Position numbers and translations under genes: made by a program
Assembly: GCA_024693505.1 (NCBI GenBank)
Contig: JAILKU010000022.1
Location: forward strand, 1 to 64,000
Direction: 5' to 3'
Length of the DNA stretch: 64,000 nucleotides
Origin: Bacteroidaceae bacterium
GTDB lineage: Bacteria > Bacteroidota > Bacteroidia > Bacteroidales > Bacteroidaceae
Shown here: positions 8,606 to 62,172 of the stretch, one piece after another
Layout of the letters: each line of letters opens with the position of its first letter
Numbering within the stretch: position 1 is the first letter of the stretch
Notes under the pieces: generated by a model
What the model saw: only the letters and a program-made list of their open reading frames with translations
Told to the model about the DNA's origin: nothing
Databases searched by the model: none

Positions 8606-8795
8606 TGCATTTCTTTTCTTTCTGCGGGACTATTAAATACTCAGGCATCTCCTGACTTCGGCGATGCGTCACCCTGTTGGCGTGCGCCAGTTGGCAATTC
8701 TTGTAATTTTGAGATGCTCGTCAGCAAAAAATCACCCTTTCCTTTTCTATTTCATATTATTTATACTTTTGCCACGGATTATACATACTCCACCC

Positions 8796-8853
8796 AAGGT
8801 GTAGCCAAGGTGTACACAAGGTGTACCCAAGGTGTACACAAGGTGTAGCCAAG
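8796..8853. repeat. 11-bp tandem repeat array, 5 units plus partial (AAGGTGTASCC / AAGGTGTACAC)
   Basis: Units at 8796, 8807, 8818, 8829, 8840, exactly 11 bp each. Confidence 0.95.
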
Positions 8854-9084
8854 TTTGAAAGGCTGTCATTACCTTGGGAAGACACTGAGTACTGCTTGGA
8901 TAGGGTATGGGTAGAGCGGAGCTCTATCGTCATTACCATCATATAGCATGTATAAATAACGAAGGACACATCTTTCCTGAGTCACCCAAGTCACTATGCA
9001 GAATTCCCTGCTTATCGGGGTTGCAAGATGGCCAGCCACTCGGAAATGTTAAAACTGCCGAGGTCAGGAGATGTCGGTGTAGGC

Positions 9085-12521: not shown

Positions 12522-12609
12522 AAAGCCGAGTAATTTTTGCCAGAGGCGGGTGTAAATTTTGCGGGAGGCGGGTGTAAATTGAAAAATACCCGGGTTTGGA
12601 TAGAAGAGA
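12522..12609. repeat. 22-bp period array, family AGGCGGGTGTAAATTTTGCGGG
   Basis: Units start at 12522 (degenerate), 12544, 12566, 12588. Confidence 0.8.
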
Positions 12610-12629
12610 GTGGAGGTACAGATTTGTGC

Positions 12630-12761
12630 AAAAGCCTATGAAATTTTGCGGAAAGGCCTTTGAAATTTTGCGGAAAGACCATTCAGTAAATGCGGAAAGG
12701 CCATTCTGTAATAACACAAAGCCCTTTCAGATAAAACGCAATGGCCTTTGAGAAAAACATG
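12630..12761. repeat. 22-bp period array, family AAAGGCCTTTGAAATTTTGCGG, six units
   Basis: Units start at 12630, 12652, 12674, 12696, 12718, 12740; most carry an AAAGGCCTTT-like palindrome. Confidence 0.9.
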
Positions 12762-22632: not shown

Positions 22633-25626
22633 TTACTCAATCCATATCAGATAGCCCTTCTTGGCAGGGATGACGAGGGGTTGGGCCGTGTCATACAGGC
22701 CCTCCTCCTGGAAATTCTTGACTGCGGGTATGTGAGCCTTCGCGCGGTTGGCCTTTAGTCCCAGGCGTTTCCAGTCGAAGGTGAGGCTGACGCTCTTCTC
22801 CTGGGCCGAGAAATTACCTACTGCCACGAGCACGCGCCCCTTGTTGACGAAGGCGGTGGCTTTCACCTCTGGGTCAGAAGTCTCTACGGCACATTCCTCG
22901 TCCCACCAGCCTGTCATCCGCGCCTCCTCGATGCCGAACTCCTGCCAGAGCTGCCATACGGGTACGGGCGAATGCTCGTTATATGAATAGCGTCCTGTAG
23001 CGCCGAATACAGCGCCCAGCCATCGGTTGCCGCCGTCCTGCAGCATCTCGGCCATCGGTCCGAAGGGGATGCCAGAGAAGGTGATGAGCCACTGGTCGGG
23101 CGTCATCTGATTGTAGCGGAACGACTCGCCGAACCACAGGCGGTCCACGAAGGCCATGTAGTCGGTGTATTGGTTCATGGGGCCGTTGGAGTAGCCTGTG
23201 TTGGAGTGCAGGTCGATGAGCGAACCAGGGCGGTAGGTCTCCATCACGCAGCGCATGCGCTTCATCACAGAGCCGTCAAACGATATGTCGTCCATATAGA
23301 CGCCGTCAATCTCGTAGTTCTGAAGCATCCAGCGCAGGCCCTCCAGATAGTAGTTTATCCAGCGCGACTGGGGGCTGGTGACCCATGCGGCATCGGTCAT
23401 CTCCAGGCTGTACTCGGCATACCAGGCAGGCCAGTAGTCCTCCACCAGGTGTTCGCAGAGCCAGGGGGCGCCTCCGCCTGGGCCTGCCGCCATGATCTCA
23501 TGGTTCAGGCTGTGCAGGGCATATATCTCCGATACGAAGTCGGTCAGTTCGCGTATGGTGTAGTAGAGCTTCACCTTCAGTCCTTTCTGGTGCATGGCCC
23601 TGATGTGTTCCTTCAGCGGTTCCCTGACGATGAAGGGGTAGTTGATAACGGGGTTGAGTCTGCCCGCATGGTGTATGTTGCTGATGTTAGCACCGTCTTT
23701 CGAAGCATTCTCGAAGCCCGAGGGATCGCCGTGGAAGTACCGTTGTTCGAACTGATGGCGGGTGTCGAGCGGTTTGGCGGGCGTGATGTGCAGTACCATC
23801 TGCAGTTCCAGCGGCTGTTTGCCCAGCGTCTGAGGTCCCAGGGCGGCGGTCACTACGGCCTGAGCCTGCTCGCCCGCTCCCTGCGTGTTCATCACGACGC
23901 GGCTCTTCCCCTCGTTGAACCAGGCAGCCGGCGCGTTCTTCTTGTAGTCGCGCAGCAGGGGACCGTGGTAGGCGTCGTCGCCTCGGAACTCCGTGTGCAG
24001 GCCAGCCTTTATGCTGCCCATCCAGTAGCTGTCCCATTGTCCGCTCCAGTCCCATGAGCATTCTTTTGGGCGGTAGCCGCCGTCCTGTCCGATGCCCATC
24101 ATGTAGGTCGAGGCATATGGTGTGTAGGCCGTCCTGAGCCGTATGTCCTTCACGTCCAGTTCCCTGTCGGCCGAGAGGTTCAGTTTGAGCAGCACCTGTC
24201 CGTCATACTCCATCTGCGCCTGGGTGGTCAGGTTCACGCCCTGCTTCTGCTGCGCTGAGGTCCAGCTCACTTGCGTATCGGCATCGCGTTGTATGCTCAC
24301 CTTGCCGCCGTCCAGCCGGATGGTGCCCTCCTGGGTCTCCACCTCTATGCGCATAGGTTCTGACAACACCTTGTGCCCGTTCACCTCCACCTGGCCGGGC
24401 AGTCCGCTGGCCGCCACTTCCAGGCTCTTCTCAGTAGCCCTGATGCGCTTGCCGCTTACCTTCATGGGCTTGAATGGGCGGATGAGCGTGCGCTCCGATC
24501 CGATGGTTGAGTTGAGCCAGCGCAGTCGTGCCAGGCGCCACAGATCGCCGTCTCCCTTATCGGCCAGCACCTGGTCCTTCACATGCAGGGTGAAGCCCAC
24601 CTTGCGCGGCGTCATGCCCTGGGCGGTTACCGTAGCCGAACCCTCGTACACCCCGGCCGGAGCATCCTCGGGCACCTGTACGCCGCACCACAGCGCCTGA
24701 ACGTCGCCCTGTGCCACGTTCACCTGCATCCTGAGCGGTTGTCCGTCCCAGCCCGTTCCTGTGCAGTTGAAGCAGGTCTGTTCGCTGACTGGGATTATCG
24801 TATTGCCACCCCTCTCCTTCAGGTCCGAGAACGTGACGTTCACTCCTTGCAGAGCGCCGTGGGCTGCCCATAGGCCTATCTGCCAAACGTAGTACTCATT
24901 CCTCAGCGCCGTACCCTCGAAGGCATCCTGCGGCACCCGCTTCACCCAGCGCACGGGCAGCTGGTGGAACAGGCGGATGGGAAAGCATCGGTCTTCGGTA
25001 TAGATGACGGGGTTCTCCGTGTGGCGCCCCCTCAGCAGGTCGGTCTCAGCCTGAGTAGCCGTGTTGCCCATCTGCGTGAAGGCCTCGAACCTGTTCACTG
25101 CCTCGAAGCGCAGCACCAGTGCCTCCACGGGCCTCTCGTCCTTCAGTGAGGTCTTCCATGCCTTGGCCTCCGCCTCGGGATAGGCGATGTAGTCGTTGTA
25201 GTCCCACATGAAGCGGCACTCGGCACTTCCCTTGCGCAGGTTGAAGGGCATGTAGTAAACCAGGTAGGTGTCCTCCCCCTCCAGCGGTTCGAACCACACA
25301 GCTCCCTCTTCGGGCGTACGCTTCTCGGCCCAGAAGTGAGCCACCTGCCTGCCGCTCGCCTGCCCAGTGATGACGAAGCTCGTGATATTGCTCTTCACGT
25401 CCGGCCTGCGCCATTTCAGCGTAGCGCGTACGGCCTTGGTTCCCTTCGGGCACTTCGCCTGCACAACGGCACGGTGGTTGCCCAGTCCGTCGGCCACCCA
25501 GGGCTCACTGGTCACCTCGAACGGCACGCCGTCGGGTGCATAACTGGCATACTGGCTGTCAGCATCCTGTGCCGACGCATTGATGACTGCCATCCAAAGC
25601 AGCATGATGAGGATTCTTCTTTTCAT
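22633..25626 (-). CDS. Secreted glycoside hydrolase-like protein (DUF6067-like)
   Basis: 997 aa; signal peptide; C-terminal TIM-barrel-like region (GVYMDDISFDGSVMKRMRCVMETYRPGSLIDLHSN). Confidence 0.6.
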   Translation of the reverse strand: MKRRILIMLLWMAVINASAQDADSQYASYAPDGVPFEVTSEPWVADGLGNHRAVVQAKCPKGTKAVRATLKWRRPDVKSNITSFVITGQASGRQVAHFWAEKRTPEEGAVWFEPLEGEDTYLVYYMPFNLRKGSAECRFMWDYNDYIAYPEAEAKAWKTSLKDERPVEALVLRFEAVNRFEAFTQMGNTATQAETDLLRGRHTENPVIYTEDRCFPIRLFHQLPVRWVKRVPQDAFEGTALRNEYYVWQIGLWAAHGALQGVNVTFSDLKERGGNTIIPVSEQTCFNCTGTGWDGQPLRMQVNVAQGDVQALWCGVQVPEDAPAGVYEGSATVTAQGMTPRKVGFTLHVKDQVLADKGDGDLWRLARLRWLNSTIGSERTLIRPFKPMKVSGKRIRATEKSLEVAASGLPGQVEVNGHKVLSEPMRIEVETQEGTIRLDGGKVSIQRDADTQVSWTSAQQKQGVNLTTQAQMEYDGQVLLKLNLSADRELDVKDIRLRTAYTPYASTYMMGIGQDGGYRPKECSWDWSGQWDSYWMGSIKAGLHTEFRGDDAYHGPLLRDYKKNAPAAWFNEGKSRVVMNTQGAGEQAQAVVTAALGPQTLGKQPLELQMVLHITPAKPLDTRHQFEQRYFHGDPSGFENASKDGANISNIHHAGRLNPVINYPFIVREPLKEHIRAMHQKGLKVKLYYTIRELTDFVSEIYALHSLNHEIMAAGPGGGAPWLCEHLVEDYWPAWYAEYSLEMTDAAWVTSPQSRWINYYLEGLRWMLQNYEIDGVYMDDISFDGSVMKRMRCVMETYRPGSLIDLHSNTGYSNGPMNQYTDYMAFVDRLWFGESFRYNQMTPDQWLITFSGIPFGPMAEMLQDGGNRWLGAVFGATGRYSYNEHSPVPVWQLWQEFGIEEARMTGWWDEECAVETSDPEVKATAFVNKGRVLVAVGNFSAQEKSVSLTFDWKRLGLKANRAKAHIPAVKNFQEEGLYDTAQPLVIPAKKGYLIWIE

Positions 25627-25685: not shown

Positions 25686-25962
25686 CTAAATAATATTCAC
25701 AATACATCGTTCATGCGGCATAAATTACTGGAAAAGGGCTCAAACCGCACGGATTTCAACTCTCGCAGCTATTTTCCGGCACGTTTTTCTGCATTACATA
25801 AACTGTTTTACTTAAGCTTGTTGTTCATGAGATGCTCATAGGATTACCATATTGTTGCCGTGCTCCAGGAATATGAGAGCTATATGAAAAGAACTCTAGT
25901 CCAATTAGAGTTCAATTAGAGATGAACACAGAAAGAATAAAGAAAAAATATACAAGTTTTCA

Positions 25963-26127
25963 ATAAATTCTCTATAAATTCTCTATAAAAACGCTATCCC
26001 TATGGTATAGAGACTTTATAGAGGTTTTATAGAGAACCAATAGAGGTCTTACTTAGGTCTTACTTAGGTCTTACTTAGGTTTCATTGAAGTTTTATTGAG
26101 AACCGGTAGAGGTTTCTTTGAGAAAAT
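25963..26127. repeat. 11-bp period degenerate tandem array, 15 contiguous units (about ATAGAGGTTTT)
   Basis: ataaattctct/ataaattctct/ataaaaacgct/atccctatggt/atagagacttt/atagaggtttt/atagagaacca/atagaggtctt/acttaggtctt/acttaggtctt/acttaggtttc/attgaagtttt/attgagaaccg/gtagaggtttc/tttgagaaaat. Confidence 0.9.
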
Positions 26128-26189: not shown

Positions 26190-26197
26190 TATCTTTG
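26190..26197 (+). promoter_or_regulatory. -7 element TATCTTTG upstream of the GLUG/LamG gene
   Basis: TATCTTTGCAC about 110 bp upstream of the ATG; no clear -33 TTTG. Confidence 0.6.
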
Positions 26198-26304
26198 CAC
26201 AGAAAAAGCACAGAAGCCGGGGGCTGAGAGGACGGCAGGACCCCCTTTAGGAAGCGCAACTGGCATAAGAAAAAGAAAACAACCTTATAATAAAGACAAA
26301 ACAC

Positions 26305-29300
26305 ATGAAGAAGAATTACCTTAAGTCTTGCCTGGCAGCCCTGGCGCTGCTGACGGCACCCCTGAGCCTCTCTGCTCTGGAGAAAGCGGACGGCACGTAC
26401 CAGATTGGCACAGCAGCCGACCTGATTGAGTTTTCAAGTCTGGTGAATGGCGGCGAAGCGGACGCCTCGGCCTGCCTGACGGCCGACCTGGACCTGAGCG
26501 GCGCTGCCCTGGAGCCTATCGGCACGGCGGCAAGCCTGTACCGCGGCACCTTCGACGGACAGGGCCACACGATCAGTAACCTCACCATCGAGAAGGAGGG
26601 AACGGATTATGTAGGCCTGTTCGGCATCGTCACGGGCGGCGCCACCATCAGGAACTTCACCCTGAAGAATGCCAGGCTGAGCGGCCAGGCCTTCATCGGC
26701 ATCATCGGCGGCTCGAACGGCAGCGGCACCATAACCGTGGATGCCCTGGGCTTCGAGGGCGAGGCCGTCGGTACGGCCCAGAACGTATCGGGCATCATCG
26801 GCGTGAACATGAACAGCAGCGCGGCCTTCAAGATAAGCAACTGCTACGTCACGGGCAAGGTGGCAGGCGGACGCGAGAGTGCAGCCATCACGGGCTGGAC
26901 AGGCGGCGGACAGAGCTCCGTCGTGAACTGCTGGAGCACGGCAGAGGTGAGCGGCAACGACACGGGGAAAGCGTTCTATCGCAACGATGCCACGGTATGG
27001 TCGAACTGCTTCGACTCATACGGCGAACAGGTGGACGCCATCCCTGAAGGTGCACTGGCAAGCGGCGCCCTGACCTTCCTGCTGAACGGCAACACGGCCG
27101 AGGGACCCTGGCGCCAGACACTGGGCGAGGACGGGCATCCCGTGCTCGCCAGCGCAAGCAAGAAGGTGTATGCCATAGCCAGCGAGGGATTCCGCTGCGA
27201 CGGTATGCCGATGGGCGAGATTACCTACACGAACGACGCTCAGACCACCGTAATTCCCGACCACCAGTACGGCGAGGGCTACGTCTGTGCAGTGTGCGGC
27301 AGGTTCAACGAGGACTTCATTCAGCCCGAGGACGGCGTCTATTCCATCGGCAACGCCACGGAACTGGCCTGGTTTGCCGAGATGGTCAACAGGGGCAACA
27401 CGGCGATAAACGGCAAACTGACGGCCGACATCACACTGGAGGACAACGTGCTGCCCATGATCGGCACGGAGGCCAACAAGTACGGCGGCACGTTCGACGG
27501 TCAGTTCTATACCGTGACGATGAACGTGGAGGCCACGGAGGCCCGCACGGCCCTGTTCCGCCATCTGAACGGCACGGTGCGCAACCTGCACACAGCCGGT
27601 CGCATCAGCACCCAGTATGCCTATGCCTGCGGTATCGCGGCCATCATGTACGGCTGCACCATCGAGAACTGCATCAGCTCCATCGAGATCCACAACGCAC
27701 GCGGCGGTCAGGACTACTGCCACTCGGGTATCGCAGGCCGTGCCACAGGCGGGGGCAACACCATCCGCAACTGTGTCTTCGACGGCAAAGTGACCGGCGA
27801 GGACCCGGTCAGCACGTCGGGTATAGTGGGCTGGGCGCCAAACGGAACGGTTGTGGACAACTGTCTGCAGATAGCCGACATAGAGGTTGGGGGCTCGGGC
27901 CGCGGCTGCTTCACCATCGGATGGGGCAACGGAGCCCTGGTGGTGAACAACTGCTACTACAAGACCGCCTTCGGCAACATGAACGAGGGTTCGACCCAGG
28001 TGAACGAGGAGCGCCTGGCCAGCGGATATATGTGCTACCTGCTGAATGAGAACCAGAACACCACCAAATGGACGCAGACGCTGGGCGAAGACGCTTATCC
28101 CCTGCCCTGGACGAACCACAAGGAGGTCTATCCGCAGAACGGTAACATCCTGTGCAGCGGAGCGCTGGATCCCAGCAACACACCCACCTTCAGCAACGAG
28201 AACACCAATCCCGCCACGCGCGAAGAGCATACCTTCAACAACAACGGCGTCTGCACAAAGTGCGGCTTCTTCGACGAGACGGCCGTGCCGCAGCTGGTGG
28301 ACGGATATTACGAGATCTTCAATGCAACCCAGTGGAAGTGGTTCGGCTCTCAGGTAGCTGCCGGCGAGGCTGAGATAAACGGCCGGCTGACAGCCGACAT
28401 CATCCTGGACGACGACAAACTGCCGATGATCGGTACGGACACCCATCCCTTCGCCGGAATCTTCGACGGCCAGTTCCACACCATTACCTTTAACGTTGAG
28501 GATGCCGAGGCACGCACAGCCCCCTTCCGCCACCTGAGCGGCACGGTGCGCAACCTGCACACAGCCGGCCGCATCCACACCAATAACTCATACGCCTGCG
28601 GTATAGCGGCTATCATGTACGGCTGCACCATCGAGAATTGTATCAGCTCCGTAGAGATATACAACGCCAAGGGCGGACAGGACTACTGCCACTCTGGCAT
28701 CGCAGGACGAGCTACGGGCGCAGGCAACGTCATCCGCAACTGCATCTTCGACGGCAGACTGGCCGGCGAGACGCCTCAGAGCACCAGCGGCATCGTGGGA
28801 TGGGCGCCCAACGCCACGCTCGTTGAGAACTGCCTGCAGATAGCAGAAGTGGAGATGGGTACAGGCCGCGGCACCTTCACCATCGGATGGAGCGACGGCT
28901 CGCTGACCGTCAGGAACTGCTACTACAAGAACGCTTTCGGATATCTGAACGACGGCAGCAGACAGGTGAACGACGACCAGCTGGCCAGCGGTGAGATATG
29001 CGTAGCACTGAACGGGAGCCAGGAAACCATAAACTGGACGCAGAACCTGGGCGAGGACATGGTTCCCGTGAACAACGCAACCCACAACCCTGTGTATCTC
29101 CTCTTCGATACCTACATAAACGACGGAACGGCCAACTACACCAAGGCCATCATGAACGAGCTGAACGCCTGCCAGGGCATGCTCGCAAACAAGGAGATGC
29201 TCACAAGTTACATGGAGGCAGTAGAGAGCCTGACGAAGTACGACAACATCACAGACCTGCTGGCTGCCTACGAGCCCCTGAAGGCTCAGCGCCAGGAACT

Positions 29301-31419
29301 GCTCTCGTGTCGCGATGCCTATACGGCCTATAAGAATAAGGTGGACGAGACCATCGCCTACATGGAAGAGCACAGCCAGATGACAGGCGAGAAGACCGAT
29401 CTGCTGAACGACTATCTGACGGGCGACGAGGAACCAGGCGAGAACTTCACCAACGGCGCTGCCCAGTACATCCTGGAGAACGGAAACCTCACAGAGGAGG
29501 AGATTATTGCCGAGACAGCCAGGATTGATGTCATGCTGCAGGAAGCAGTCATCAGCAGTCCCACAGCCGGCACAGAGATTACGAAGCTGCTCGTCAATCC
29601 CGACTTCCGCAACAACTTCAACGGCTGGGAAGGCGAACCGGGCACTGGAACCACCGTAACCGAACAGATGGCCGGAGCCGAAAGCTGGGCTAAGACAATG
29701 GACATGCACCAGACGCTCACCAACCTGCAGAACGGTGTGTACGAACTGCAGGTGAACGGTGCATACCGTCCCAACGAAGAGCCGGCCGGCACCAACTATG
29801 CGGCCTTCCTCTATGCCAACGACATTCAGAACTACTTCCAGGCCGACATTGAGGACGTCATCTTCGAGGATGAGGCTCAGGACGGCGTAAACTGCAACAT
29901 CAGCGGCAGCACTCCCGACTATATCATAGAGCAGGAAACCGAATCGGGCACCCGATTGGGTTACGTCATGCACGGCACGCTCGGCTGCTGCTATGCCTTC
30001 CAGGCCGGACGATACAGGAACAGCGTGCTGGTGAACGTGACGGACGGCACCCTGACGGTAGGCATAAAGAAACTCTCGACCCGCAGCAACGCCAAGGACT
30101 GGCTGGGCTTCGGCAACGTAAGGGTCATCTACCAGGGCACTCAGGACGAGGCCGTAGGCGCCATGCAGAGCGTACTGCGCGATATGACTGCCAGAGCCGA
30201 TGTGCTGGTGAATGTTTACGAGGCAAGCATCAACTCCGACTATCCAGAGCATCCCAACTTCAGTCAGGCCATCAAGGATGAACTGCAGGCACTTAGCATT
30301 AAAACGACTGAGAAGGTGCAGAGGACTCCTGAGGAATATTACGCCATGATTCAGCAGTTCTCCGACCTCTTCCAGCAGGTATATGACTGCAAGAATGCTT
30401 ACCTCGAACTGGGCGACTGCCTGGAGGACCTCTTCGAACTGAGCGAATACGACCCCTCGCTCACCGATGAAATCAACGCCACCTACGACAAGACCTGGGC
30501 TGAATGGGAAGCCGGCAAGTTCACACAGGAGGAAGCTCTGGCCAAGAAGCAGGAGATTGAAGAGTGGATTCGCTCCAAGGTTGCCGGCGACATTCCGGAG
30601 CCCGACCTGCTGGACGTAGCCTTCAATGCCGACGGCACAGCTACCGACAAGTCTGCTCTTGCAAACGAGATAGCCAACTTCGGCGAGCCCTCCGTACTGC
30701 TGGATTCCGAAGTCAACATGAATATATTCGACGAGACGGCAAATGCCTGGGGCGGAAACCAGCTTAACTCGTACTGCTTCGATATGACTGGCGACCTCTG
30801 GGACAAGCTCTCCGACGGCTTCTCTGTTGAGGCTTATGTATGTCCCACCTGGGAAGGCGACAACGTGCCGACTGGCTGGTGCGGCGTTCTCGGCCTGGCA
30901 CAGAACGGCGGTTTCCTCCTGGGCGTAAGCTCTCAGAAGTGGCTATTCCAGGCCTCCATCAATGGTGCCTGGGCTAACGGTCGTGGCGACAAGAACCTGG
31001 AGAAGGACAAGTGGACGCACCTCGTTGGCGTATGGAACAAGACGGCTGGCACGCTGGCGATGTACGTCGACGGAAACCTCACAGGCCTGGTTACCGCTTC
31101 AGGCGAGCTGACGGTGCCTCAGGTAGTAGATGACACCAAGTGTTATATTGGTGCAGACATGAAGGGAGGCGTTCCAGGTACTGAGCCCGAGGCTTCTTTC
31201 CAAGGCAAGATTGCCTTTATACGCCTTTATGACGTAGCAATGCCTGGCGCAGCTGCCACAGAGCTCTATCGCAGGGCCACAGCAACAGCCCTGGATGAAA
31301 TTGCCGCCGAAAAGGGCCAGACGAGTCCTGCGGGCATCTACAACATCATGGGGCAGCGCGTACAGAAGGCTCAGCACGGCATCTTCATCATAGACGGAAA
31401 AAAGGTATTACTGAAGTAA
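26305..31419 (+). CDS. Giant secreted adhesin-like protein: GLUG-type repeats, duplicated approx 250-aa module, LamG-like domain, T9SS-type tail
   Basis: 1704 aa; GTFDGQGHTISNLTIEKEGTDYVGLFG; two copies of NLHTAGRI...YACGIAAIMYGCTIENCISS; C-terminal IYNIMGQRVQKAQHGIFIIDGKKVLLK. Confidence 0.85.
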   Translation: MKKNYLKSCLAALALLTAPLSLSALEKADGTYQIGTAADLIEFSSLVNGGEADASACLTADLDLSGAALEPIGTAASLYRGTFDGQGHTISNLTIEKEGTDYVGLFGIVTGGATIRNFTLKNARLSGQAFIGIIGGSNGSGTITVDALGFEGEAVGTAQNVSGIIGVNMNSSAAFKISNCYVTGKVAGGRESAAITGWTGGGQSSVVNCWSTAEVSGNDTGKAFYRNDATVWSNCFDSYGEQVDAIPEGALASGALTFLLNGNTAEGPWRQTLGEDGHPVLASASKKVYAIASEGFRCDGMPMGEITYTNDAQTTVIPDHQYGEGYVCAVCGRFNEDFIQPEDGVYSIGNATELAWFAEMVNRGNTAINGKLTADITLEDNVLPMIGTEANKYGGTFDGQFYTVTMNVEATEARTALFRHLNGTVRNLHTAGRISTQYAYACGIAAIMYGCTIENCISSIEIHNARGGQDYCHSGIAGRATGGGNTIRNCVFDGKVTGEDPVSTSGIVGWAPNGTVVDNCLQIADIEVGGSGRGCFTIGWGNGALVVNNCYYKTAFGNMNEGSTQVNEERLASGYMCYLLNENQNTTKWTQTLGEDAYPLPWTNHKEVYPQNGNILCSGALDPSNTPTFSNENTNPATREEHTFNNNGVCTKCGFFDETAVPQLVDGYYEIFNATQWKWFGSQVAAGEAEINGRLTADIILDDDKLPMIGTDTHPFAGIFDGQFHTITFNVEDAEARTAPFRHLSGTVRNLHTAGRIHTNNSYACGIAAIMYGCTIENCISSVEIYNAKGGQDYCHSGIAGRATGAGNVIRNCIFDGRLAGETPQSTSGIVGWAPNATLVENCLQIAEVEMGTGRGTFTIGWSDGSLTVRNCYYKNAFGYLNDGSRQVNDDQLASGEICVALNGSQETINWTQNLGEDMVPVNNATHNPVYLLFDTYINDGTANYTKAIMNELNACQGMLANKEMLTSYMEAVESLTKYDNITDLLAAYEPLKAQRQELLSCRDAYTAYKNKVDETIAYMEEHSQMTGEKTDLLNDYLTGDEEPGENFTNGAAQYILENGNLTEEEIIAETARIDVMLQEAVISSPTAGTEITKLLVNPDFRNNFNGWEGEPGTGTTVTEQMAGAESWAKTMDMHQTLTNLQNGVYELQVNGAYRPNEEPAGTNYAAFLYANDIQNYFQADIEDVIFEDEAQDGVNCNISGSTPDYIIEQETESGTRLGYVMHGTLGCCYAFQAGRYRNSVLVNVTDGTLTVGIKKLSTRSNAKDWLGFGNVRVIYQGTQDEAVGAMQSVLRDMTARADVLVNVYEASINSDYPEHPNFSQAIKDELQALSIKTTEKVQRTPEEYYAMIQQFSDLFQQVYDCKNAYLELGDCLEDLFELSEYDPSLTDEINATYDKTWAEWEAGKFTQEEALAKKQEIEEWIRSKVAGDIPEPDLLDVAFNADGTATDKSALANEIANFGEPSVLLDSEVNMNIFDETANAWGGNQLNSYCFDMTGDLWDKLSDGFSVEAYVCPTWEGDNVPTGWCGVLGLAQNGGFLLGVSSQKWLFQASINGAWANGRGDKNLEKDKWTHLVGVWNKTAGTLAMYVDGNLTGLVTASGELTVPQVVDDTKCYIGADMKGGVPGTEPEASFQGKIAFIRLYDVAMPGAAATELYRRATATALDEIAAEKGQTSPAGIYNIMGQRVQKAQHGIFIIDGKKVLLK

Positions 31420-34368: not shown

Positions 34369-34411
34369 GAAACGAAAATGAAAACCTTTAAACTCCTTTA
34401 GCCACAAAACG

Positions 34412-34497
34412 GAACCCGGGTCTTTTGTTTGCGGGACCCGGGTCTAGTAATTGCAGAACCCGGGTCTGGCAATTGTAGAACCCGCTTTGATATAAAC
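34412..34497. repeat. 22-bp period array, family GAACCCGGGTCTGGCAATTGTA
   Basis: Units start at 34412, 34434, 34456, 34478 (last partial); ACCCGGGT palindrome in each full unit. Confidence 0.93.
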
Positions 34498-36246: not shown

Positions 36247-37611
36247 ATGGCACAGAAACCCAGTATTCCCAAGGGGACACGCGACTTCGGTCCGCAGGAG
36301 ACAGCACGACGAAACTACATCTTCAACACCATTCGCGAGGTTTATGAACTCTATGGCTTCCAGCAGATAGAGACGCCCGCAATGGAGAACCTCAGCACGC
36401 TGATGGGCAAGTACGGCGAGGAGGGCGACAAGCTGCTCTTCAAGGTGCTGAACAGCGGCGACTTCCTGCGCGGCATCTGCGAGGGGGAACTGGCCGAGGG
36501 CGCAACCGGCCACCTGGCTGCACGCCTCTGCGAGAAGGGCCTCCGCTACGACCTGACTGTTCCTTTTGCGCGCTACGTGGTGCAGCACCGCGAGGAACTG
36601 ACCATGCCTTTCCGCCGTTATCAGATACAGCCCGTATGGCGAGCCGACCGTCCGCAGAAGGGACGCTATCGCGAGTTCTACCAGTGCGATGCCGATGTTG
36701 TGGGCACAGACTCGCTGCTGTCCGAGGTGGAACTGATGCAAATAGTGGACACCGTCTTCCGCCGTTTCGGCATTCGTGTCTGCATCAAGATAAACAACCG
36801 CAAGATTCTGCAGGGCATAGCCGAAATGATCGGAGAGGCAGAGCGGATTGTGGACATCACCGTTGCCATCGACAAACTGGACAAGATAGGGCTGGACGGG
36901 GTGAACGATGAACTCCGCCAGGACGGACTCAGCGAGGAAGCCATAGGCAAACTGCAGCCTATCATCAGCCTGAGCGGCTCAAACCAGGACAAACTGAACA
37001 CGATGCGACAGGTTTTGGCGCAGAGCGAGGCAGGGCAGAAGGGACTGGACGAGGTGGAATATGTCATCTCCAAACTCTCGACCCTAAGCTCTCAACTGGA
37101 CTTAGACCTCACCCTTGCCCGCGGACTGAACTACTATACGGGCTGCATCTTCGAGGTGAAGGCCCTTGACGTAGAGATTGGCAGCATAACAGGCGGCGGA
37201 CGCTACGACAATCTGACAGGCATCTTCGGCCTGCCAGGCCTGAGCGGTGTAGGCATCAGCTTCGGCGCAGACCGCATCTACGACGTGCTGGGTCAGCTGG
37301 ATCTCTATCCTGCGCAGGTCACCACAGCCACCCAACTGCTCTTCATCAACTTCGGTGAGCAGGAGGCAGACTACTGCCTGCCCATCCTGGCCGAAGCCCG
37401 CCAAGCCGGCCTGCGCTGCGAGTTATACCCAGACGCAGCCAAGATGAAGAAGCAGATGCAGTACGCCAACCAGAAGCAAATCCCCTTCGTGGCCCTGGCC
37501 GGAGAGACAGAGATGGCGCAAGGCCGACTCACCCTGAAGAACATGCTTACAGGCGAGCAGACGTTGATCACCCCTCAGGAGCTTATTGAGCAGGTGAAGA
37601 CAATGGCGTAG
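36247..37611 (+). CDS. hisS: Histidyl-tRNA synthetase
   Basis: 454 aa; [50 protein letters not shown]. Confidence 0.97.
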
Positions 37612-37618
37612 TCAAGCT

Positions 37619-37684
37619 AAAACAACGGCGTTGAAAGGCTGAAACAACGGCGTTGTTTTGGCAAAACATCGGTGTTGTTTTTCA
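37619..37684. repeat. 22-bp period array, three units, family AAAACAACGGCGTTGTTTTGGC
   Basis: Units start at 37619, 37641, 37663; between convergent hisS and ispF. Confidence 0.95.
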
Positions 37685-46411: not shown

Positions 46412-46436
46412 AATTCATAATTCATAATTCATAATT
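46412..46436. repeat. (AATTCAT)n heptamer repeat
   Basis: AATTCAT at 46412, 46419, 46426, then AATT. Confidence 0.95.
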
Positions 46437-46480
46437 GAAATCCATTTGTCCTATTATGAATTGTGAATTATGAACTCCTG

Positions 46481-47102: not shown

Positions 47103-48569
47103 ATGAGAAGTATTACGCAGGAAGAGATGAGGCAATTGCTGTCCGCGCCGCTGTTCCACCAGATAGGGCAGACAGCCGACGAGATGGGCGTGGAATGCTA
47201 TGTCGTGGGCGGCTATGTGCGCGACCTCTTCCTCGAGCGCCCCTCTAAGGACATTGACTGTGTCGTCGTGGGCTCCGGAATCCGCGTGGCTGAAGCCCTT
47301 AAGGAGCGGCTGGGCAGCAAGGCACATCTGAGCGTGTTCCGCAACTTCGGCACCGCACAGCTGAAGTTCGGAGGCACCGAGGTCGAATTCGTCGGCGCCC
47401 GCCGCGAGAGCTACAGCCACGACAGCCGCAAGCCTGTCGTGGAGGACGGCACACTGGAGGACGACCTCGACCGCCGCGACTTCACCATCAATGCACTGGC
47501 CGTATGCCTCAATCAGTCGCGCTACGGCGAGCTCATCGACCGCTTCGACGGCCTTCTCGACCTCGAGGACGGCATCATCGCCACACCCCTCGACCCCGAC
47601 ATCACCTTCAGCGACGACCCCCTGCGCATGATGCGCTGCATACGCTTTGCCACCCAGCTCAGGTTCCAGATCGAGGACGAGACGCAGGAGGCACTGGGCA
47701 GGAATGCCGAGCGCATAAAGATCATCTCCCGCGAACGCATTGCCGACGAGCTCAACAAAATCATGCTCAGCCCCATCCCCAGCATAGGCTTCATCGAGAT
47801 GCAGCGCTGCGGCCTGCTCAGCCTGATACTGCCCGAGATTGCCGCCCTCGAGGGCGTCGAGGTCCGCCAGGGACGCGCCCACAAGGACAACTTCTACCAT
47901 ACGCTCGAGGTGCTCGATAACGTGGCCCGAGCCCAGGACGGCACCGATGCCGACGACGAGAAGAGGCTATGGCTGCGCTGGGCGGCACTGCTCCACGACA
48001 TCGGCAAGCCGCGCACCAAGCGATGGGAGAACGCAGGTGGCTGGACATTCCACAACCACAACTACGTGGGCCGCAAGATGGTGGCTCCGCTGTTCCGCCG
48101 CATGAAACTGCCGCTGGACGAGCGACTGGCATACGTCGAGAAGCTCGTCGACCTGCACATGCGACCCATCGTCATTGCCGATGATGTGGTCACCGACTCC
48201 GCCGTCCGCCGCCTCCTCTTCGAGGCCGGGGAGGACATCGACGACCTGATGATGCTCTGCGAAGCCGACATAACCAGCAAGAACCAGCAGCGCAAACGAC
48301 AGTTCCTCGACAACTTCCGCATGGTGCGCGAGAAGCTGGCCGACCTGCAGGCGCGCGACAACTACCGCACCTGGACCAACCCCGTCACGGGCGAGGAGAT
48401 CATGCAGACCCTCGGCCTACCACCCTGCCGCCAGATCGGCATACTGAAGCAGGCCGTCAAGGACGCCATCTGGGACAGCCTCATCCCCAACGATCACGAT
48501 GCCGCCTTCGAATATATGATGAAGAAAGCCGAAGAGATGGGACTCCTGAGTTCAATTCATAATTCATAA
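47103..48569 (+). CDS. cca: CCA tRNA nucleotidyltransferase / poly(A) polymerase family with HD domain
   Basis: 488 aa; VVGGYVRDLFLERPSKDIDCVV, DLDRRDFTINALAV, LLHDIGKPRTKRWE. Confidence 0.93.
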   Translation: MRSITQEEMRQLLSAPLFHQIGQTADEMGVECYVVGGYVRDLFLERPSKDIDCVVVGSGIRVAEALKERLGSKAHLSVFRNFGTAQLKFGGTEVEFVGARRESYSHDSRKPVVEDGTLEDDLDRRDFTINALAVCLNQSRYGELIDRFDGLLDLEDGIIATPLDPDITFSDDPLRMMRCIRFATQLRFQIEDETQEALGRNAERIKIISRERIADELNKIMLSPIPSIGFIEMQRCGLLSLILPEIAALEGVEVRQGRAHKDNFYHTLEVLDNVARAQDGTDADDEKRLWLRWAALLHDIGKPRTKRWENAGGWTFHNHNYVGRKMVAPLFRRMKLPLDERLAYVEKLVDLHMRPIVIADDVVTDSAVRRLLFEAGEDIDDLMMLCEADITSKNQQRKRQFLDNFRMVREKLADLQARDNYRTWTNPVTGEEIMQTLGLPPCRQIGILKQAVKDAIWDSLIPNDHDAAFEYMMKKAEEMGLLSSIHNS

Positions 48570-48592
48570 TTCATAATTCAAAATGCATAATG
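48554..48592. repeat. (AATTCAT)n heptamer repeat overlapping the cca stop codon
   Basis: AATTCAT at 48554, 48561, 48568; cca ends ...SSIHNS*. Confidence 0.95.
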
Positions 48593-48657
48593 CATAATTC
48601 AAAATTTGTAAATTCAAAATTCAAAAATGGGCTGCGCCTTGAACCTCTTGAACGTAT

Positions 48658-49452: not shown

Positions 49453-49470
49453 AAAACGGAGCAAATGTGC

Positions 49471-49530
49471 CATATCGTGCCTTATCGTGCCTTATCGCTC
49501 CATATCGTTCCATATCGCGCCGTATCGCTC
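49471..49530. repeat. 10-bp tandem array 1 (CWTATCGYKC-like), six units
   Basis: catatcgtgc cttatcgtgc cttatcgctc catatcgttc catatcgcgc cgtatcgctc. Confidence 0.95.
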
Positions 49531-49531
49531 C

Positions 49532-49562
49532 TCGCGCAAAAAAACTGTTGTATCTTTGCACC
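49532..49562 (+). promoter_or_regulatory. Promoter-like block copy 1 (TCGCGCAAAA...TGTTGTATCTTTGCACC)
   Basis: -7 element TATCTTTG at 49551-49558; paralogous block at 49665-49695. Confidence 0.7.
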
Positions 49563-49570
49563 GCGAATGA

Positions 49571-49664
49571 AGCAATAACGTGCAATACCCTGCAATACCC
49601 TGCAGTACCCTGCAATATCGTGCAATATCGTGCAATACCCTGCAATACCCTGCAATACCCTGCA
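49571..49664. repeat. 10-bp tandem array 2 (TGCAATACCC), eight units plus a degenerate first unit and a partial last unit
   Basis: tgcaataccc at 49581, 49591, 49631, 49641, 49651; tgcagtaccc 49601; tgcaatatcg 49611, 49621. Confidence 0.97.
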
Positions 49665-53718: not shown

Positions 53719-53752
53719 CTTTTTTTAATTCATAATTCATAATTCAAAAGGT

Positions 53753-62106: not shown

Positions 62107-62172
62107 AAAACATCGGTGTTGTTTTGGCAAAACAACGACGTAGAAAAGGCAAAACAATGGCGTTGTTTTCTA
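62107..62172. repeat. 22-bp period array, three units, same family as 37619-37684
   Basis: Units start at 62107, 62129, 62151; between convergent ilvE and the 62446 gene. Confidence 0.95.

Follow-up and report, generated by a model that had tools for sequence, protein, structure and literature searches.

The window analysed here, a stretch of 64,000 nucleotides from the genome of a Bacteroidaceae bacterium, contains at 25963-26127 a repetitive intergenic element situated between two divergent genes. According to profile searches, the gene on the reverse strand (22633-25626) encodes a GH123-family protein, and the one on the forward strand (26305-31419) a secreted protein of 1704 amino acids with a C-terminal LamG domain. 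The latter product had been described in an earlier note as a GLUG/LamG surface protein. The LamG part of this description holds, with Pfam Laminin_G_3 found at residues 1503-1646; the GLUG profile gave no match at E 1e-3, and GLUG-like motifs are visible by eye only. By inspection, a candidate Bacteroidetes-type -7 box of this gene, TATCTTTG, is located on the forward strand at 26190-26197, about 63 bp beyond the end of the array, in agreement with the distance of about 60 bp given previously, and it is correct that a clear -33 TTTG is absent upstream of it. The 5' leader of the gene has a GGGGGC...ACCCCC inverted repeat (26215-26260) that, by eye, is not kept in the ortholog of the sister species, G152.

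The 11-bp period claimed for 25963-26127 is borne out. Identity at lag 11 is 0.636, versus 0.281 +/- 0.036 in shuffled sequences (z 9.9; none of 1000 dinucleotide-preserving shuffles reached as high), and further harmonics are found at 22 and 33. As a check set beforehand, the span of the perfect GGTCTTACTTA units (26044-26080) was masked; the peak remains, at 0.585. The proposed run of 15 like-oriented units, on the other hand, has to be redrawn, as units 1-3 are reverse complements and unit 4 is a centre. The element is an inverted lattice, in which three CTCTA units are followed by the centre and by about eleven TAGAG-like units pointing the opposite way. The left arm, defined by the sequence and an inverted-repeat search, is read on the reverse strand at 25965-25996 (units 1-3 in the former division, 25963-25995), with CTCTA at 25970 and 25981 and CGCTA at 25992. 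The asymmetric centre, CTATCCCTATGGTATAGAG, which is conserved and common to the palindromic family, was located by pattern match at 25994-26012 of the forward strand (contig C173 of the source genome, G000). The right arm (26008-26127, forward strand), delimited by sequence and autocorrelation, is composed of about eleven 11-bp lattice units: four with TAGAG, three with CTTAG, and then TTGAA, TTGAG, TAGAG and TTGAG. A repeat search aligns 25968-26000 with 26004-26036 as inverted arms, 82% complementary and 3 nt apart. Units 3 and 4 had been recognized as the weakest matches, and this can now be understood, since the former ends the inverted arm and the latter constitutes the centre. A two-unit array, AGTCCAATTAG AGTTCAATTAG, adjoins the element at 25898-25921 (forward strand); on the basis of its sequence and a genome DNA search it belongs to a separate TAGAG-TYCAAT subfamily, with longer arrays at C6, C33, C128 and C165 of G000.

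The element is not confined to this locus. A DNA search of its own genome (3.59 Mb in 180 contigs) retrieved at least eight further copies, at C152, C85, C136, C145, C7, C162, C54 and C73, the most similar being 92% identical to the query. Owing to the palindromic nature of the element, matches are obtained on either strand. The copies at C152 and C136 have central parts that are 97% identical and flanks that are unrelated. Seven copies are present in the sister species, one of them at the orthologous site and flipped. The centre was searched for as CTATYCCTATN{2,5}ATAGAG, with the reversed pattern as a control. Among 139 genomes of the genus it has eight occurrences in G000, seven in G152 and a single one in each of G005, G089 and G107, the control giving 0; the four single matches among another 295 genomes from the order do not exceed the reversed control and are thus at chance level. 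The genes neighbouring the palindromic copies are diverse: the C152 copy is found between convergent genes, the C85 copy upstream of a GLUG-like paralog, and several others upstream of genes for exported proteins. The copies at C7, C54, C73 and C162 form a subfamily with about 300 bp in common around the palindrome, including AAAACAACGCCGTTGTTTT arrays, and those at C73 and C162 are situated at contig ends, so that the assembly probably breaks on the element. Furthermore, 1649 bp are 98.2% identical without a gap between C145 of G000 (L012 2219-3867) and C4 of G152 (L110 1270-2918). Since other orthologous regions of the two species are about 75-89% identical, this suggests a recent horizontal exchange.

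Conservation within the units is unevenly distributed. For this comparison, 19 copies were aligned with the centre as the only anchor, and information was computed from 12 non-redundant copies for units 1-3 of each arm. The (A)TAGAG positions carry 1.35-1.89 bits and the five spacer positions 0.48-0.93 bits. This contrast does not arise from relatedness alone, because the positions within one unit share one history. The earlier prediction that the units may be helically phased and cooperatively bound gains support from the TAGAG lattice and from this maintenance of the motif while spacers drift. The two arms do not covary: over 26 positions, pairing is 0.818 with the own partner versus 0.836 with shuffled partners. 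Therefore, the dyad represents a DNA motif in two orientations rather than a covarying RNA stem.

The lattice is also apparent from TAGAG itself. In 344 kb of G000, pairs of TAGAG are spaced 41 times at 11 bp, 28 times at 22 and 17 times at 33, each of the other distances from 6 to 35 being found 0-2 times. The samples of G152 display a similar spacing pattern, and no TAGAG pairs at 11 bp were seen in sampled stretches of other species. The triple TAGAG-N6-TAGAG-N6-TAGAG is present in 16 of the 139 genomes of the genus, with 90 occurrences in G000, 50 in G152 and 17-18 in G111 and G127; the reversed control yields 2, 1, 5 and 12, respectively, and with a control of 12 the lattice in G127 is not convincing. 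In the rest of the genus, the TAGAG-N6 lattice is rare or absent.

Some of these lattices persist at orthologous sites. In G152, the element is likewise found in the gap between the GH123 and GLUG/LamG genes; relative to these genes, its centre and long arm are turned round, and about 120 bp separate array and promoter, versus 63 in G000. At the miaA locus, both species have 11-bp TAGAG lattices that differ in their letters, and at the sppA locus a palindrome in G152 is matched by an array of CTCTAGTTCCT-type units in G000 (these gene names, and AraC below, were assigned by eye from protein sequences). Both species are thus occupied at three of the four loci compared, four loci being few. The fourth, the AraC locus (G000:C156), has no lattice in G000 and its upstream DNA differs, so that it cannot count as a clean empty site; a search for empty sites by means of GH123 homologs in G079, G006 and G077 led to loci that are not syntenic and hence uninformative. 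With regard to the number of units, three ortholog pairs were compared. Two pairs, with 97.4% and 98.2% identity, have equal numbers, and a more diverged pair (C7/C73 versus C1 of G152) differs in length by exactly one 11-bp unit. The idea of phase variation through unit number thus finds a single one-unit difference in its favour and two unchanged close pairs against it, and it is weakly supported at best.

With its 11-bp period, inverted layout, dispersal, conservation of motif over spacer, non-covarying arms and persistence at several orthologous sites, the element is best explained, with a probability of roughly 0.55, as a MITE- or BIME-like dispersed repeat that would act as a helically phased candidate lattice for protein binding and that would not be dedicated to the adhesin gene. 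TAGAG, returning every 11 bp and so at every helical turn, is displayed in two inverted arms around the conserved asymmetric centre CTATYCCTAT-N-ATAGAG. A sequence-specific protein, postulated from the conservation, could then recognize TAGAG on a single helical face, with cooperative assembly along the array; a nucleoid-associated protein, a partition-like protein or a recombinase/transposase are candidate classes. Such a lattice would act at the level of DNA, with no transcript as an intermediate, and the adjacent surface-protein gene would not be its dedicated target. Copies may have spread among intergenic sites in the way of a MITE or BIME, and arrays would gain or lose length in steps of 11 bp.

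It could also be imagined that the element is a selfish or neutral minisatellite within a MITE-like palindrome, comparable to BrickBuilt of Porphyromonas, a known example of this kind (PMC4596501), with a transposase supplied in trans, expansion by slippage and no function for the host. The dispersal through intergenic DNA whatever the gene orientation, the restriction to one lineage, the near-identical central parts with unrelated flanks at C152 and C136 and the extended subfamily of about 300 bp are all in line with this. The element is indeed multi-copy, short, noncoding, AT-rich and intergenic, as MITEs are, and shares with REP and BIME sequences the character of a dispersed palindromic extragenic repeat. 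However, a minisatellite would not be expected to keep its motif positions while the spacers drift, nor to persist as a lattice at orthologous loci. Moreover, inspection revealed neither terminal inverted repeats nor target-site duplications, the inverted arms being internal and the ends varying between copies, and no Y1/RAYT transposase (PF01797) was found in the carriers G000, G152, G005, G089 and G107, of which the assemblies are 84-91% complete. The latter result also led to the rejection of membership in the REP/RAYT group, within the limits of these incomplete assemblies. As a whole, this explanation seems somewhat unlikely.

The array might otherwise be a product of mutation only, if some process of replication or repair in the lineage produces duplications whose length is a multiple of 11 bp, so that any sequence can become an array. 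To describe this background, repeats of 10 bp or more in intergenic DNA were counted in sampled stretches at distances of 11, 22, 33, 44, 55 and 66 bp versus twelve neighbouring distances. The ratio is 33 to 6 places in G000 and 15 to 5 in G152, some stretches of both having been picked for carrying the element, and 33 to 12 in other members of the genus. Other genera of the family yield 23 to 7, with lag 66 probably partly CRISPR and to be discounted, and stretches sampled from ten further families yield 0 to 1. When all TAGAG arrays are left out, G000 still has 25 to 6. Arrays with periods of 11, 22, 33 or 44 bp are thus common in intergenic DNA of the genus, weaker in the family and unseen in the samples from the ten families; their sequences vary from one species to another, palindromes of 10-12 bp on a 22-bp step being frequent. 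Noncoding DNA (33.7 kb) contains 20 lag-11 repeats, coding DNA (310 kb) 0. Because many different and unrelated sequences have these periods in the genus, part of the pattern may reflect a mutational tendency to amplify DNA by complete turns of the helix. As the only cause it is quite unlikely, as it leaves unexplained both the constancy of TAGAG alongside variable spacers and the conservation of the asymmetric centre in 18 copies.

In the window itself, unrelated intergenic arrays with a 22-bp period are present at 8777-8868, 12528-12717, 34397-34482, 37605-37670 and 62111-62172, often palindromic (CCCGGGT, CAACGGCGTTG, AAAGGCCT), and two of these kinds, CCCGGGT and CAACGGCGTTG, recur as 22-bp arrays in the sampled stretch L023, at 15405 and 18480. 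Heptanucleotide arrays of the AATTCAT type, with 7, 14 or 21 bp, constitute a second class of intergenic repeats (48554-48626, 46412-46474 and 53726-53746), with a lower density in other families. Two 10-bp tandem arrays close together at 49467-49664, GTGCCATATC and GCAATACCCT, do not follow the 11-bp pattern. No description of 11-bp or 22-bp intergenic arrays in Bacteroidetes was found in the open-access literature.

A third possibility, and the one favoured in the earlier note, is that the array controls the GLUG/LamG gene in cis, as a set of tandem operators to which an activator or a repressor would bind, with the number of units as a possible source of phase variation. Its location about 63 bp upstream of the candidate -7 box, the copies upstream of the GLUG-like paralog and of exported proteins, and the binding of 11-bp direct repeats by OmpR/PhoB-type regulators speak for it. 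However, copies also reside at many unrelated genes and, at C152, between convergent ones, and the ortholog in G152 has the opposite orientation and a distance of about 120 bp to the promoter. The placement of arrays is as predicted by gap length, with 18, 10 and 6 arrays in tandem, divergent and convergent gaps versus 19.4, 10.5 and 4.2 expected (G000 and G152 together), and in tandem gaps of all samples 29 of 41 arrays are nearer to the 3' end of the upstream gene. No bias towards promoters is seen, for arrays in general or for palindromic copies, and control of this adhesin specifically is unsupported. The intrinsic curvature that had been suggested is predicted for 25963-26127 itself, where a wedge model gives 1.33 versus 0.60 +/- 0.23 after shuffling; with values of 0.17 to 1.77 among family members it is not conserved, and curvature was rejected as a conserved function. 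Given the dispersal, the placement by gap length, the variable curvature and the mostly stable unit number, which does not change between close orthologs, a private switch of the adhesin, whether based on curvature or phase-variable, is not the best reading, and cis-regulation of this gene is very doubtful. A structured RNA or bidirectional terminator is extremely improbable, since the palindrome folds well (z -5.8 as RNA, -5.5 as DNA) but its arms do not covary, there is no Rfam match within the window, inspection reveals no T-run 3' of the stem and convergent gaps are not strongly favoured.

Returning to the dispersed binding lattice, if a protein reads TAGAG at every turn of the helix and does so in dozens of intergenic gaps, it would represent an undescribed chromosome-wide nucleoprotein system in uncultured Prevotellaceae-like bacteria. 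Its motif would then vary between sister species on a fixed spacing and provide a natural experiment on the birth and replacement of binding-site arrays. On a wider scale, it is possible to speculate, although this is unlikely, that helix-turn-locked intergenic lattices of 11, 22, 33 or 44 bp make up an undescribed system throughout the family, with a short motif particular to each lineage (TAGAG here, mostly palindromic others in sister species). They could be the cognate sites of a lattice-forming DNA-binding protein that evolves fast and that organizes the chromosome or drives motif-guided copying. Even a mere minisatellite habit would call for caution in taking such arrays for private promoter switches.

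Several known systems share features with the element. The plasmid partition site parC consists of 11-bp iterons bound by ParR, in two helically phased arrays of direct repeats on which the protein assembles cooperatively. The two helically phased arrays of 11-bp repeats are common to both, whereas here the arms are inverted and many chromosomal loci are involved. PhoB/OmpR boxes are 11-bp direct repeats with a conserved half of 5-6 bp, occurring at promoters and in few units. They resemble the lattice in the combination of a short conserved motif with an AT-rich spacer on an 11-bp step, and differ from it in that the lattice has up to about a dozen units and no promoter bias. Prokaryotic intergenic DNA has a 10-11 bp A/T periodicity, a weak dinucleotide signal (PMC516772); a period of one helical turn is likewise concentrated here in intergenic DNA, but the repeat consists of complete 11-bp units and has a specific motif. 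As to REP/BIME sequences with their RAYT transposases, these are also dispersed extragenic palindromes with regular spacing and alternating orientation (PMC3733652, PMC2817692), in contrast to which no Y1/RAYT gene was found in the five carriers, and the element, in place of one short palindrome, has arms of strictly 11-bp tandem units. Among described elements, BrickBuilt of Porphyromonas gingivalis comes nearest; it is a MITE with multiple intergenic copies, having tandem units of 23 nt, a leader, a tail and terminal inverted repeats (PMC4596501). Although the element has 11-bp units, two inverted arms, a conserved centre and conservation at the level of the motif, with no leader or tail identified, both are lineage-specific, always intergenic, multi-copy and mostly made up of short tandem repeats, and both belong to the Bacteroidales.
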